Position numbers and translations under genes: made by a program. From the NCBI RefSeq assembly GCF_014654725.1, contig NZ_JACVZV010000006.1:1-64000 (forward strand): a stretch of DNA of 64,000 nucleotides, read 5' to 3'. This DNA comes from Vulcanococcus sp. Clear-D1 (GTDB taxonomy: Bacteria > Cyanobacteriota > Cyanobacteriia > PCC-6307 > Cyanobiaceae). This document shows positions 1-6,076 of the stretch, in pieces. The notes beneath the pieces are model-generated. The model had not been told where the DNA came from. It saw only the letters and a program-made list of their open reading frames with translations, and ran no database searches. Positions within the stretch are counted from its first letter, which is position 1. Every line of letters begins with the position of its first letter.

Positions 1-153
1 CAATGGCGCGACGACAACCAGAGCTGAACCCGTGATCAGACTTTGAATCGGCCCTAGCCGCCCAGTGAGGAGGCCCAGGATCGCCATCAACAGCAGCAAC
101 CACTGCGAATAACGGACACCTCGACGCTTGCGGCCTTCCGGTAGAGCCTGCAT
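1..153 (-). mobile_element. Transposase-like fragment, N-terminal part, runs off the left edge
   Basis: On the minus strand an open frame begins with ATG at 151-153 and continues past base 1. Its start reads MQALPEGRKRRGVRYSQW and is followed by a hydrophobic run and GLLTGRLG. This resembles the N-terminal 'H-repeat-associated' region of ISAs1-type DDE transposases, which have a P-x-R-R-x-R-G-x-R-Y stretch and then a leucine-rich helix ending near a G-x-x-G. The frame stays open upstream to about base 343 without a normal start codon, so the true N-terminus is unclear. The catalytic residues lie outside the window. Whether the element is intact cannot be judged. Family assignment is by pattern only. 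Confidence 0.42.
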
Positions 154-637
154 GAACGCGATCCGATCAGCAGTGGCAGCGGGGTCGGCCAACAGACGAG
201 AGCAGTCCCAACGAAATCGGCACCAGCATGGCCGCGCCAGCTGCCTTGTGCCTGACTTTCGGTCGGCCCTGAGGAGTACCAGATGCCGCTGGTCGCGAAC
301 AGGGCAGTGTTGACGGAGAAAGGCGATCAGTTCAGCATGCAGCTAGGCACGGGATGCCACTGGGACTTGGATTGGTTTCGCAGCCCCACGCTTTCATGGC
401 TACCGGCCCACCCAATCAGATGAAATCCGCTCTGTTGCAACGGGTCTCGGGCTTGTGCCACTCAGCCAGGTGGCGGGGCTTTCAGCAAACTCTTAGTAGG
501 CACCCCTGGGATGTACAGCGGGCTTCTAGAACCACCCAAAGGATTGCACCCGAATCAGCTTGCTGAATCTTTTGAGACCAAAGACTGTTCTTTACTATCA
601 TCTTAGCCGCCGCGACTGACACAATTAAGGATGCAAG
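154..637. other. Non-coding or decayed stretch next to the transposase fragment
   Basis: No reading frame here has a recognisable protein pattern. Two plus-strand open frames (128-313 and 354-566) are rich in Ser, Arg and His without any domain and look spurious. The position between a transposase-like fragment and a decayed gene copy suggests IS-flanking debris. I could not define terminal inverted repeats. Confidence 0.4.
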
Positions 638-1137
638 TCAATCAGACCACCCTAGCCATACCGAAATTCTGAACGGCAGACGCTCATGAAATCTGCATTC
701 AAGTCGATCGAGTGACAGCAGCAATGCCAATTCGGCAGCTACGTTGATAACGGGATCCAACAAATCAGGATACTCCAACCACACCAAAGCGTTGGCCAAC
801 GATAGGTTCGATTCGAACTTCAGCCGCGCTTCGAAGCCAAAGATAAACCGACGATACTTTTCGCTAAGCCATGGCAATCCTGTTGAAGCATGTTCGATCA
901 GCAGCTCTCAGGCCTGAAATCTCGCTTGGATTATCACAGTCGATCAAACAAGAAAGCTCGCAATTTTCAGGGCCTTGAGACATAAGTTAAACTATTCTCA
1001 CCAGTCCTCTGAAGCCTCGGAGGATCAAGCAGATCACGAAGAACCCGCTGTGACTTAGCGAGATAGTCATCAAATTTTATGGGATCCAGCTGGGACAGCA
1101 ACTGGACGGTACATACGCGGCTTTGCTCAAGTTTCAC
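638..1137 (-). pseudogene. Decayed second copy of the DUF1997 gene
   Basis: This minus-strand stretch aligns along its length with the intact gene at 1560-2060. The copy still begins with a GTG codon (1135-1137) and reads VKLEQSRVCTVQL, identical to the intact start. It stays alignable through YLAKSQRVLRDLLDPPRLQR, then loses one base in the codons matching 'SRPL' and runs into a stop. Further indels follow. The C-terminal third is again open (638-877) and matches the intact protein at FGFEARLK, NALVW, LDRLE-RF-ERLP. The frameshifts and internal stops make it a pseudogene. Confidence 0.85.
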
Positions 1138-1328
1138 GCTTCCGATAGAGCCATCAAGACCTGGTCAATTTCACAGATCGGGAAGTGGTTGCTCGCCTCG
1201 AGGGTGACACGAGCACTATACCGCAGGCGCTGACTATTGCCTCATAATAAGGCGCCTGGCTGAGCAGATCCGTAGTGCGGCGCATGATCCGCACCACATC
1301 ACCCTCATCCAGCGAGGTGCTGGCGATT
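1134..1328 (-). pseudogene. Remnant of the helicase 3' end
   Basis: About 195 bases match the last 195 bases of the intact helicase gene (2057-2252). Translated, the remnant reads SLDEGDVVRIMRRT-DLL-Q and then breaks: one base is missing in the codons equivalent to 'EAISQRL', shifting the frame. The TGA stop (1134-1136) and its 4-base GTGA overlap with the following DUF1997 copy are preserved, so helicase end and DUF1997 gene were copied together as one block. It cannot encode a helicase. Confidence 0.85.
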
Positions 1329-1332
1329 CAGA

Positions 1333-1491
1333 CTAGGCCGATAGACCAGCTAAATCCGAAGAATCGACTGCATAGCCCTTGCTAATAGCGAAATCAGCAA
1401 CAGCTTTAACGTTGACAGCTTCCTTGAGTTGCTTGAGCTCAGGCTTAACGTGAAGATCTTGCCGGAATCTCAGAAGCTCTTCCTCGGACAC
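1333..1491 (-). CDS. Nif11-like leader-peptide domain protein, 52 aa
   Basis: This short frame starts with GTG at 1489-1491 (an in-frame stop lies four codons upstream) and ends with TAG at 1333-1335. The protein begins VSEEELLRFRQDL, continues KPELKQLKEA, VKAVADFAISKGY and AVDSSDLAGLSA. This is the layout of Nif11 domains: an S-E-E-x-L start, a P-x-L-x-x-x-L-K-x-A middle, and a '(V/I)A-x-x-x-G(Y/F)' helix followed by a D-L. Nif11 domains serve as leaders of ribosomally made peptides (prochlorosins and relatives) or as stand-alone small proteins. No double-glycine site and no core peptide follow. The stop lies about five bases from the duplication junction, so the gene may have been truncated by it. 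A promoter candidate sits about 30 bases upstream. No strong ribosome binding site is visible. Confidence 0.5.
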   Translation of the reverse strand: MSEEELLRFRQDLHVKPELKQLKEAVNVKAVADFAISKGYAVDSSDLAGLSA

Positions 1492-1520
1492 AATCTGATT
1501 TCAGCGACAATTTGGCGTAT

Positions 1521-1549
1521 ATATTGACCCAACCAACCAAGCAGGTCAA
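1521..1549 (-). promoter_or_regulatory. Sigma70-type promoter candidate for the Nif11-like gene
   Basis: Reading the minus strand, TTGACC (1544-1549) is followed after 17 bases by CAATAT (1521-1526), within a TATATA-rich patch that stands out in this GC-rich DNA. The distance to the GTG start at 1491 is about 30 bases. It lies just after the stop of the DUF1997 gene. Inferred from sequence only. Confidence 0.4.
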
Positions 1550-1559
1550 GCCCGGCACC

Positions 1560-2060
1560 TCAGCCAGCTCGCCGCAGCCATGCTTCCGCTTTAAGCGGCA
1601 AACGCTCCTGGAATCTGTTTTCAAGCCGATCTAGTATCTGCCGAAAGGTCAATTGGGCAGCTGGCCTGACCACCGCGTCGAGAACACCTGGAAACTCTAT
1701 CCACACCAAAGCTTTGGCCGATAAACCTTTCGATTCAGCTTTAAGTCGTGCCTCGAGACCAAAGCTGAAATTGCGATATGTATCACCAAGCCCAGGCAGG
1801 CCTTTTGAGCGATGTTCAATCTGGAGCTCTCCATCCTTGAATCTCGTCTGAATCGCCACCTTCGGCTGAATAATAAAACCAGCAATCGTCAGCGGCCTTG
1901 ACCCATAGGTAAAAGTCTCCGAACCGGCTCTCTTAAGCCGCTGCGGATCAAGCAATCCACGCAAAACCCGTACCGGTTTAGAGAGATAGTCCTCAAGTTG
2001 TACCGCATCCCGTAGGGAATCCAGCTGGACTGTACATACGCGACTTTGCTCAAGTTTCAC
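1560..2060 (-). CDS. DUF1997-like protein, 166 aa
   Basis: The protein looks like cyanobacterial/plastid DUF1997 proteins: an early 'YL-x-x-P-x-R-V-L-x-x-L-x-D-P-x-R-L' segment, a central beta-rich part (FIIQPKVAIQTRF), and a C-terminal helix LDRLENRFQERL. There is no signal peptide or membrane helix. Function is unknown. It starts with GTG (2058-2060), overlapping the helicase stop by four bases (GTGA), so the two are probably translated together. A decayed duplicate lies at 638-1137. The family assignment rests on pattern resemblance. Confidence 0.6.
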   Translation of the reverse strand: MKLEQSRVCTVQLDSLRDAVQLEDYLSKPVRVLRGLLDPQRLKRAGSETFTYGSRPLTIAGFIIQPKVAIQTRFKDGELQIEHRSKGLPGLGDTYRNFSFGLEARLKAESKGLSAKALVWIEFPGVLDAVVRPAAQLTFRQILDRLENRFQERLPLKAEAWLRRAG

Positions 2061-4822
2061 GATTGTGATGGAGCCATCAAGACCTGGTCAATTTCACACA
2101 CCGGGAAGCGGTTGATCGCCTTGAGGGCAGCGCGGGCGTGATCGCGCAGGCGCTGGCTGATCGCCTCGCAATAGGGCACCTGGGCGAGCAGATCCACGGT
2201 GCGGCGCATGATCCGCACCACATCACCCTCATCCAGCGAGGTGTTGGCGATCAGGTCGTTCCAGCTCACGCCCTTGGCCCAGGCGTACACCAGGCCCATC
2301 AGCTCCGGCTCGAACCACAACGGCATCACCACCGAGGCCCGCTCCTGCTGGCGCTGCAGCTCGCGGCGGATGCCGCGCAGATCGTGCAGAGCCTCCTCGG
2401 ATGCCGGCGACGGCGGGAAACCACTCCACAGATCTGGACGGTTCACCTCCGTGGAGATCGCTTCAAACACCGCTGCCAGATCCGCCGGCTCCAACTCATC
2501 GAGGTGACCGCTCATCAGCGCCAGCCCCAACCAGAGCTCGTTATCGCCCCGCAGGACCCCCACGGTGCGGCCGATCTCCGTGGGTTCAAGCCCCTCCTCA
2601 CCGGCCAGGCAGCCGAAATGGCGCAGGATCTCGATCAACGCCAGGACGGTTTCCCAATGGCGATTGGCGCGGAAGTGCAGGATGCGCTGCCGCTCCTCGA
2701 TCTCCGCCTCCAACTCTTCGATGCGGAAACGCTGCTTGCGCAGCTTCTTGCGATCGCCGGCGCGGTGGGCTGGATGCAGCTCCAGGGCCAGCTCCAGCTC
2801 CCGCACCAGATGGACCTGGGCTTGCACCTCGCCCGCCAGGTCGTACTGCGGAGTGGTCATGTCGTGGCGGCGGGCCATGTGGGCCACCGCCAGGGCCAAG
2901 CCGCCGCTGGCCTGATCGCCATGGCGCAGCTCACCGGCGCGGTGCAGCTCCGGCGCCGCAATCTCCTTCACCTGGAGGCAGCTGAGCTCGGCGTGCAGGC
3001 TCACCACCGCCGTGCAGGGCACCAACACCCACACGTTCTCGTCGGTGAGGCAGAGCAGCAGCGGGAACTGGCCCGGGCCCTCCACCTTCTCCACGATCAC
3101 CGCCGGCGTGACCCGCCCCCGCAGCACCGGCGCCTTCAGGCTCACCAAGGCGCCTTCACTGGCGAAGCGGAGCGCCAGGGTGAGTTCATGGGCGAGGGTT
3201 TCCTCGGCCTGCTGCTGCAGGATCCGAAGCAGCCGCCGCTCCTCCCGCAGCCGGCCGCGCTGCTTCTCGTAGTCCTCGAAGTCGTCCCAGGCCACCTCCA
3301 CCGCCTCTTCACTGAGATGGCTGAGCTGCGCACGCAGTTCGGCGATCCGCGCTTCGTCGTCAGCTAGATCGAGCGTGGCCAGATAGCGCCCAAAGCTGCG
3401 TTCCACCAGCTCACGCGCCTTGGTGAGGTCGTAGCGCTGCAGCAGGTTGAGCACCATGCCGTAGCTGGGGGTGAACTGGCTCACCAGCGGATCGGCGGGA
3501 GCCGTAGCCAGCTGCCCCGCTTCGCGCACCCCTTCAAAGCGGCTCTGCACCGTCACCACATAGCCCTGGGTATCGAGGCCGCGGCGGCCGGCCCGGCCAG
3601 CCATCTGCAGAAACTCACTGCCCATCAGGGGCCGATGCCCCCGCTCCGTGCGCTTGGAGAGCGCTGAGATCACGGTGCTGCGGGCCGGCATGTTGATGCC
3701 CGCCGCCAGGGTTTCGGTGGCGAATACCACCTTCACCAACCCCTGCTGGAACAACTCCTCAATCAGCTCCTTCCAGGCGGGCAGCACCCCGGCGTGGTGG
3801 GCGGCGATACCTCGTAGCAGGGCCTCATCGTGGCCGCCATCGCGCACGGCTTCCGGGGTAGCCGCCACAAACGCTTCGAGCCGCGCCCGGATGCGGGCCT
3901 GCTCCTCCGGCGTCACCAGGCACACCTTGCCCAGATCGCGCACCGCTTTATCGCAACCGCGGCGGCTGAAGATGAAATAGATCGCGGGGAGCATCTCCCG
4001 CTCGGCCATCTGGGCCACCACAAACCCGAGCGGCGGCGCCTCGGGCTGCGGGGGCTTCGGGGTTTTCGGCCCCTTGCGCTTATTGCCCTTGGGGGCGCGC
4101 CAGACCTTGCAGTTGGGGTGCAGGTCGGTGCCCTCGTCGTTGAGCAGCGGATGCAGCCCCTTGGCACTGCAGAAGCTGAACTGCAGCGGCACCGGCCGGT
4201 AATCGCTCATCACCAAGGTGGTGGGGCCGTGCACCCGCTCAATCCAGTCGGTGAGCTGCCCGGCATTGGCCACCGTGGCCGAAAGAGCCACCAACTGCAC
4301 CACCGGCGGGCAGTGAATGATCGATTCTTCCCAGACAGTGCCCCGCTGGGAATCATTCATGTAGTGGCACTCATCGAGTACCACAGCTTCCACATCTTCG
4401 AGGGGGTCGTCGCCCTGATCCGCTTCCGCATAGAGCATGTTGCGGAAGATCTCGGTGGTCATCACCACGATCGAGGCCTCACGGTTCACCGTGAGATCGC
4501 CTGTCATCAAGCCCACCCGCTCGGCGCCGAACTGCTCGCGGAAATCGCGCAGTTTCTGGTTGGAAAGAGCCTTGAGGGGGGTTGTGTAAAACACCTTGCG
4601 CCCATGGGCCAGGGCGCGGTGAATGGCGTATTCGCCCACCAGGGTTTTGCCCGAGCCGGTGGGGGCGCTCACCACCACCGAGTGCCCTTGATTCAAGGCA
4701 TCGATCGCTTCCATCTGGAAGCCGTCGAGCGGGAAGGGGAAGAGCTCACCCAGCGGCGGCACAACACCGGATGCGGCGCCGGAAGTCGACGCGGCGTCGG
4801 AGGCCTGGGTGCTGCTTGCCAT
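2057..4822 (-). CDS. Ski2-like DEAD/DEAH-box RNA helicase with DSHCT domain
   Basis: The 921-residue protein has the superfamily 2 helicase motifs in order: Walker A APTGSGKT at residues 53-60, DECH (motif II) near 147, SAT (motif III) soon after, and QMAGRAGRRG (motif VI) near 405. The long C-terminal half fits the DSHCT region of Ski2/Mtr4-type helicases. Such enzymes unwind RNA and assist RNA decay or ribosome maturation; the substrate in cyanobacteria is not settled. The first 20 residues are a low-complexity Ser/Ala tail. It starts with ATG and is transcribed divergently from the biotin operon. The last 195 bases were once duplicated downstream. Confidence 0.9.
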   Translation of the reverse strand: MASSTQASDAASTSGAASGVVPPLGELFPFPLDGFQMEAIDALNQGHSVVVSAPTGSGKTLVGEYAIHRALAHGRKVFYTTPLKALSNQKLRDFREQFGAERVGLMTGDLTVNREASIVVMTTEIFRNMLYAEADQGDDPLEDVEAVVLDECHYMNDSQRGTVWEESIIHCPPVVQLVALSATVANAGQLTDWIERVHGPTTLVMSDYRPVPLQFSFCSAKGLHPLLNDEGTDLHPNCKVWRAPKGNKRKGPKTPKPPQPEAPPLGFVVAQMAEREMLPAIYFIFSRRGCDKAVRDLGKVCLVTPEEQARIRARLEAFVAATPEAVRDGGHDEALLRGIAAHHAGVLPAWKELIEELFQQGLVKVVFATETLAAGINMPARSTVISALSKRTERGHRPLMGSEFLQMAGRAGRRGLDTQGYVVTVQSRFEGVREAGQLATAPADPLVSQFTPSYGMVLNLLQRYDLTKARELVERSFGRYLATLDLADDEARIAELRAQLSHLSEEAVEVAWDDFEDYEKQRGRLREERRLLRILQQQAEETLAHELTLALRFASEGALVSLKAPVLRGRVTPAVIVEKVEGPGQFPLLLCLTDENVWVLVPCTAVVSLHAELSCLQVKEIAAPELHRAGELRHGDQASGGLALAVAHMARRHDMTTPQYDLAGEVQAQVHLVRELELALELHPAHRAGDRKKLRKQRFRIEELEAEIEERQRILHFRANRHWETVLALIEILRHFGCLAGEEGLEPTEIGRTVGVLRGDNELWLGLALMSGHLDELEPADLAAVFEAISTEVNRPDLWSGFPPSPASEEALHDLRGIRRELQRQQERASVVMPLWFEPELMGLVYAWAKGVSWNDLIANTSLDEGDVVRIMRRTVDLLAQVPYCEAISQRLRDHARAALKAINRFPVCEIDQVLMAPSQS

Positions 4823-4915
4823 TAGCAGATCCTATGGGCACCCGCTCAGCGGGCAGACTGAGGGCACCACAGCGCAGCAGCGGGCTTGGTCGAGGCTCAC
4901 GCCACCAGCTCAGAG

Positions 4916-6076
4916 ATGTCCTGGCGTGCGCCTCTTGCGGACGATCTTGAGCAGCTACCCGCCGACCGGCGCCGCCAACCGCGCAGCTGGCAGCCAGCCG
5001 GAAGCGCTGGCCTGCAGAGCACAGCCCCAGGCAGCCCGCCCCTGCTGGATCTGGCCAGCAACGATTACCTGGGCCTGGCCGCGCACCCCGCCCTGGTGGA
5101 GGCCGCCAGCCAGGCGATGCACAGGGAGGGCGTGGGCGCCGGGGCCTCACGGTTGGTGAGCGGTGGGCGCAGCGTGCATGAGCAGCTGGAAACCGCACTA
5201 GCCGCCTGGCTGGGGCGGGAGCGGGTGATGCTCTTCCCCAGCGGCTTTCAGGCCAACCTGGCGGCGGTGCAGGCCCTGGCCGATCGCCACACCCTGGTGT
5301 TGGCCGATCGGCTGATGCATCACTCGCTGCTCGTGGGCATTCGCGCCAGCGGCGCGCGGCTGCAGCGCTTCGCCCACAACCAGCTCGATGCGCTGGAGCA
5401 GCGCCTGCTTCAGGCACGCCGCGATCAGCCCCAGCGCCGGCTGCTGGTGATCAGCGAAAGCCTGTTCTCGATGGAGGGCACCTCCCCCGATCCGGCCCGC
5501 CTCAGTGCGCTGTGCCAGCGCTACAACGCCGCCCTGCTGCTGGATGAAGCCCATGCCCTGGGTGTGCTGGGCCCCGGCGGCCGCGGCCTGGGCTACGGCC
5601 TGGCGGGCGTCAGCCTGATCAGCGGCACCTTCGGCAAAGCCTTCGGCAGCGGCGGAGCCTTTCTGGCGGGCGAGGCGCTGGTGGGGGAATGGCTGCTGCA
5701 GCACTCAGGCCCGTACCGCTACACCACAGCCCTCGCCCCGCCCCTGGCGGCGGCAGCTCTGGCGGCCCTGACACAGATCAACAAACACCCTGAACGCGCC
5801 AGCCAACTGCTGGAGCGCGCCGAGCGCTGGCGCAACCGGTTGGAGGCGGCTGGATGGCCGCGGCCATCTGGGCAAGGCCCGATCCTGCCGCTGCTGGTGG
5901 GCGACAACCAGCGCGCCCTGGCGCTGCAACAGCAGCTGGAGCAAGCCGGGCTGCTCAGCGTGGCGATCCGCCCCCCAACGGTGCCGGCGGGCACAGCCAG
6001 GCTGCGGCTGGTGCTGCGCCACGATCTGCCCCCAGGCAGCCTGGCGCTACTGATCAGCGCACTGGGATCACCATGA
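4916..6076 (+). CDS. bioF: 8-amino-7-oxononanoate synthase
   Basis: This PLP-dependent enzyme condenses pimeloyl-ACP (or -CoA) with alanine, the first step of the biotin ring pathway. It belongs to the alpha-oxoamine synthase family: N-terminal SNDYLGL, the G-A-G-A-S-R-L-V-S-G stretch, LLLDEAHALGVLG with the Asp/His pair, and the PLP lysine in SGTFGKAFGS near residue 240. I prefer the ATG at 4916 (MSWRAPLADD, 386 aa); an in-frame TTG at 4886 would add ten residues. The stop overlaps the next gene by four bases (ATGA). It heads the bioF-bioH-like-bioC-bioD operon. Confidence 0.93.
   Translation: MSWRAPLADDLEQLPADRRRQPRSWQPAGSAGLQSTAPGSPPLLDLASNDYLGLAAHPALVEAASQAMHREGVGAGASRLVSGGRSVHEQLETALAAWLGRERVMLFPSGFQANLAAVQALADRHTLVLADRLMHHSLLVGIRASGARLQRFAHNQLDALEQRLLQARRDQPQRRLLVISESLFSMEGTSPDPARLSALCQRYNAALLLDEAHALGVLGPGGRGLGYGLAGVSLISGTFGKAFGSGGAFLAGEALVGEWLLQHSGPYRYTTALAPPLAAAALAALTQINKHPERASQLLERAERWRNRLEAAGWPRPSGQGPILPLLVGDNQRALALQQQLEQAGLLSVAIRPPTVPAGTARLRLVLRHDLPPGSLALLISALGSP

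Follow-up and report, generated by a model that had tools for sequence, protein, structure and literature searches.

A short Nif11-domain frame beside a decayed duplication in Vulcanococcus sp. Clear-D1, probably the relic of a longer gene

How does a 52-codon frame resembling a Nif11 leader come to lie between two copies of the same helicase and DUF1997 sequence, and is it of any use to the cell? This question is raised by the beginning of the 64,000-nt stretch of the Vulcanococcus sp. Clear-D1 genome analysed here (hereafter, the window), whose first base is also base 1 of contig C6. Read along the minus strand, the helicase gene is followed by DUF1997, then by the Nif11 frame, and finally by a degraded second "helicase end + DUF1997" unit, running from approximately 1328 down to 617. 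The features concerned are the following:

2057..4822, minus strand: full-length gene of 921 aa, presumably a helicase (so named in the sequence-only reading and for its type of sequence), with a duplicated 3' end
1560..2060, minus strand: intact DUF1997 gene of 166 aa (PF09366, 52.5 bits), adjoining the helicase gene; copy B
1521..1549, minus strand: promoter-like site TTGACC-17-CAATAT, an 8/12 match at chance level, not listed by a 9/12 scan
1333..1491, minus strand: 52-aa frame with a GTG start; a full Nif11 domain (residues 1–47), then five residues and TAG
1134..1328, minus strand: remnant of the helicase 3' end; the start of copy A, bordering the Nif11 frame
617..1137, minus strand: decayed DUF1997 copy A and duplicated 3' flank, with in-frame stops and a frameshift

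A genuine Nif11 domain

The sequence-only reading had described a GTG-started frame of 52 codons belonging to the Nif11 family, and our data agree with it in coordinates, start and sequence, as well as in the family assignment. The Pfam model PF07862 matched the frame at 23.4 bits (E 7.3e-5), with profile positions 1–48 of 48 falling on residues 1–47; this is 0.4 bits below the curated gathering cut-off of 23.8 bits. An in-frame stop lies four codons upstream of the GTG, and the C-terminus reads ...SSDLAGLSA. An alignment of four sequences places a one-residue gap inside the domain, and such a gap, together with the sub-cut-off Pfam score, would fit relaxed selection.

The same shortfall of 0.4 bits would also be expected of an open frame that resembles Nif11 by accident, as would the mere 17.1 bits (E 0.025, below the cut-off) that the locus obtained in a six-frame PF07862 search of the whole genome. 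Against such an accident, the domain is matched in full length, and the start codon coincides with model position 1. Moreover, an HMM made from the Nif11 domains of genus loci other than that of the 52-aa frame gave the frame 25.3 bits; among 1146 window segments, the runner-up reached 8.7 bits, and the maximum over the best frames of 40 randomised 64-kb windows (first-order Markov shuffles of the window) was 9.1 bits. The similarity is therefore real and goes beyond chance; on these randomised-window scores, we rejected the accidental reading, whose probability we regard as close to nil.

The six-frame search of the same genome yielded 16 places at E≤10, nine of them above the cut-off. Above-cut-off domains occur in all 25 genus genomes, with 2–17 matches each at E≤0.01; many of the best-scoring genus matches are of a GEYN-tailed type. 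The genome also carries two neighbouring 319-aa frames (L012 and L013, C24:142798-143990) with identical weak Nif11 scores of 14.6 bits, apparently a tandem duplicate.

The duplication junction and its surroundings

The duplication proposed from sequence alone was confirmed, with about 617–1328 corresponding to 1525–2252. Its copies share 88% identity over 1236–1327 (92 nt) and 76% over 971–1235 (265 nt), running on into DUF1997, to the end of which the homology extends. The duplicated stretch even seems to pass the DUF1997 stop, reaching about 1525/617: an anchored comparison over 50 nt was equalled by 0.002 of 1000 shuffles, and one over the longer tails by 0.056 of 500. Over its roughly 690 nt, copy A has acquired two in-frame stops as well as two single-base indels. 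An Rfam search of window positions 1–5000 returned no match.

The stop codon of the Nif11 frame occupies 1335–1333, and the helicase homology sets in at 1327 or 1328, or at 1332 when judged by BLAST against relatives. The two are thus separated by 0–5 bases, depending on the alignment, in line with the distance of about five bases noted earlier. A gapped alignment pushes weak helicase similarity up to 1351 (equalled by 0.028 of 1000 shuffles over 25 nt), in which case the last residues of the Nif11 frame would derive from helicase DNA. Under either alignment, the Nif11 stop lies in or beside the junction. Judging from the coordinates, the Nif11 frame and the helicase remnant would be in different reading frames.

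The helicase itself is held by all 25 genus genomes searched, Clear-D1 included. At 17 of the 23 relative loci with downstream DNA, it is followed by the same short protein (among frames of at least 100 aa), which we take to be RlmH. Nif11 was found beside the helicase at none of the 25 genus loci (23 with downstream DNA), where the only scores obtained with the Nif11 model were 3.9 and −0.2 bits, both at one locus (L085). Outside the genus but within the family, 12 of 13 loci examined (out of 24) have the helicase adjoining a 36–46% identical DUF1997, the thirteenth being a 2-kb fragment; hence, the helicase and DUF1997 pair is not unique to our genome. None of the 24 loci of other genera has Nif11 beside DUF1997. 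Within the sets searched, a Nif11 frame next to this pair occurs in this genome only.

As for DUF1997, its matches within the genus lie away from the helicase, unlike in several genera elsewhere in the family, and Clear-D1 has a further DUF1997 gene, on contig C3, matching about as well as the genus ones. A DUF1997 scan of the genome_contigs set gave no match.

No close relative of the Nif11 frame came up in the sets searched. At E≤0.01, it matched proteins in two of 59 other genomes, with 40% and 41% identity, and at E≤1e-5 it had no relative in 387 other genomes of the class. Neither the plasmids set nor genome_contigs and viral_contigs contained one, the latter two being covered by pattern scans whose reach is limited to close relatives. 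When 201 genomes of the family were searched at the DNA level, matches to the helicase remnant were widespread; the Nif11 frame had a single 34-nt match, to its first codons (G100), and a further 55-nt match fell on the DUF1997 flank (G151). Neither match site encodes Nif11, with nothing at E≤10 at one (L137) and a short unrelated frame of 3.6 bits at the other (L138), and both were rejected as Nif11 relatives.

A stranded fragment or a short functional protein

The end of the frame is its most unusual part. We compared 48 distinct frames scoring above 15 bits, that of the window included, drawn from the best-scoring loci of the genus matches. Past the Nif11 domain, five residues follow here versus 15–132 in 45 of the 47 other frames, all 45 of which reach Nif11 model position 43 or later. 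The remaining two stop short within the model, at positions 20 and 14, and have tails of zero and three residues. The genus Nif11 matches listed all lie in open frames of at least 63 aa, versus 55 aa for the open frame here.

Taking together what is directly seen at this locus, namely, homology to Nif11, a stop at the border, no tail and a decayed duplicate, we consider the frame to be most likely the remaining 5' portion of a Nif11-domain gene that was cut by a rearrangement and stranded at the junction. Such an isolated copy, truncated at a decayed duplication and with neither the tail nor the cleavage site of a precursor, is probably an ordinary gene relic. The scenario would start from a Nif11-domain gene that was once longer. 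A rearrangement would have put a second copy of the helicase end and DUF1997, now decayed, beside this gene and cut it right behind the domain, removing the rest, with the stop codon now in or next to the junction. The short frame left over would then persist as a relic, probably a non-functional one. The sequence-only reading had supposed that the duplication cut off a longer precursor; the truncated-looking end at the junction, with its 5-aa tail, speaks for the cut, while the precursor role did not hold up (see below).

Several observations run counter to a relic. The frame is intact over the entire domain and starts at its first residue, whereas the neighbouring copy A is broken. Yet at the rate of damage in copy A, only about 0.9 disrupting events are expected in 159 nt (a rough hand calculation from the roughly 690 nt of that copy), so an open frame is unremarkable. 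GC content by codon position (0.67/0.33/0.46) is coding-like, which counts against a relic, and is similar to that of DUF1997 copy B (0.64/0.43/0.48). Codon adaptation provides no separation, being 0.383 for the Nif11 frame versus 0.447 for an antisense frame. Two further Nif11 frames of the same genome have tails of 15 and 17 aa, which makes a naturally short form conceivable.

Such evidence could also point to a functional stand-alone Nif11 protein, short by nature and transcribed either from a promoter belonging to it or through read-through of the upstream DUF1997 gene. The intact domain and start, the coding-like base composition and the position of the start, 68 nt past the upstream DUF1997 stop on the same strand, would all suit such a protein. 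On the other side stand a tail shorter than in the 45 other frames reaching the domain end, the failure to find an orthologue in the sets searched, a decaying neighbourhood and the lack of convincing expression signals. None of the five Shine-Dalgarno-like tetramers tried occurs within 29 nt upstream of the GTG. The promoter proposed in the sequence-only reading is present (TTGACC-17-CAATAT, 1549–1521 on the minus strand), but agrees at no more than 8 of the 12 positions. There are 13 such 8/12 sites in 600–2200, where 15.1 would be expected, and of 1000 random stretches of 90 nt, 217 (about 22%) contain one; being at chance level, the site was rejected as evidence of expression. Since the duplication seems to reach about 1525/617, the proposed −35 hexamer would lie inside the duplicated DUF1997 flank. 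Overall, we regard a naturally short functional protein as unlikely.

Far less likely still is a truncation that created a tail-less stand-alone Nif11 domain, still expressed and acting in trans. If this were true, such a domain could, for example, occupy a partner that normally recognises the other Nif11 proteins of the genome.

Returning to the truncated gene, its missing 3' part was absent from window positions 1–700 as searched by DNA alignment and with the genus model, a further point against the relic reading. A simple tandem duplication carrying Nif11 would be expected to leave a second Nif11 after copy A. In 1–640, however, the genus Nif11 model gave every frame −0.9 bits or less, so that such a duplication does not readily account for the Nif11 piece lying between the copies. 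The best DNA alignment in 1–700 (36 points, about 44–48 nt) lies near 212–255, displaced from the expected place, and is weak, being matched by one of 100 simple shuffles and 10 of 1000 Markov shuffles. Given the protein-level maximum of −0.9 bits in 1–640, we rejected a Nif11 copy there.

Lanthipeptide leaders and other known Nif11 systems

The sequence-only reading had connected the frame with leaders that guide lanthipeptide-type products. Seen this way, it would be the leader of a prochlorosin-like precursor, either truncated or operating in trans, and its best outside match is indeed a precursor of the Gly-Gly type (L018; 41% identity, E 5.1e-4). However, inspected to its end, the 52-aa frame contains neither a Gly-Gly motif nor a core peptide. 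On TIGR03798, the model for RiPP precursors with a Nif11-like leader, it obtained 18.1 bits versus a cut-off of 32.3, while the precursor-type relative L018 and L001 of our genome reached 58.3 and 56.7 bits. Of the synthetase searches proposed along with the leader idea, LANC_like was blank throughout the genome at E≤0.01, its control being found in two of 14 genomes. DUF4135 (LanM) was blank in our genome and in all 25 genus genomes, which carries little weight because no control gave a match either. On the missing motif and core, the TIGR03798 score and the blank LANC_like search, we rejected a lanthipeptide leader, a very improbable reading in our opinion; without tail, cleavage site and core, this frame most likely yields no useful peptide.

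The genome does encode a C39-peptidase ABC exporter, located on contig C37, away from the Nif11 frame. Directly upstream of it sit four consecutive small frames on one strand (L111:226-444, 477-692, 751-966 and 1003-1317), carrying the motifs VNGGWG, IAGGWG, VTGGFR and ISGGRF. These four had no NCBIfam match at E≤0.01 and, from their sequences, look like double-glycine exported peptides.

Beyond annotation, a Nif11 relic is of little consequence. The case suggests that a short picocyanobacterial Nif11 frame can be the relic of a rearrangement, and before such frames are counted as natural-product precursors, their tail, cleavage motif and synteny should be checked.

How, then, does the frame compare with known systems? 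With the PF07862 family, it shares all 48 aligned domain positions and a start at model position 1, differing in its slightly sub-threshold score, the one-residue gap and the 5-residue tail. With the N11P precursors described by TIGR03798, it has the first part of the leader in common (model positions 1–49 of 68), but falls 14 bits short and lacks both the core and a cleavage region of the ELSDEELEAVAGG type, the motif given for N11P leaders, together with a leader length of 69, in Haft et al. 2010 (PMC2887384). Unlike the prochlorosins and synechococsins, it has no core and no D/EELExxxGG, the prochlorosin motif in a 2023 survey (PMC10783134), and its genome has no LanC-like match at E≤0.01. 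The survey also sets apart a GEYH/N-tailed group, described there as of unknown function (PMC10783134), which L001 of our genome resembles in its GEYN end. What the 52-aa frame does retain of the prochlorosins and synechococsins is its beginning, MSEEEL, which is similar to the MS/TEEQL N-terminus reported in the same survey (PMC10783134).
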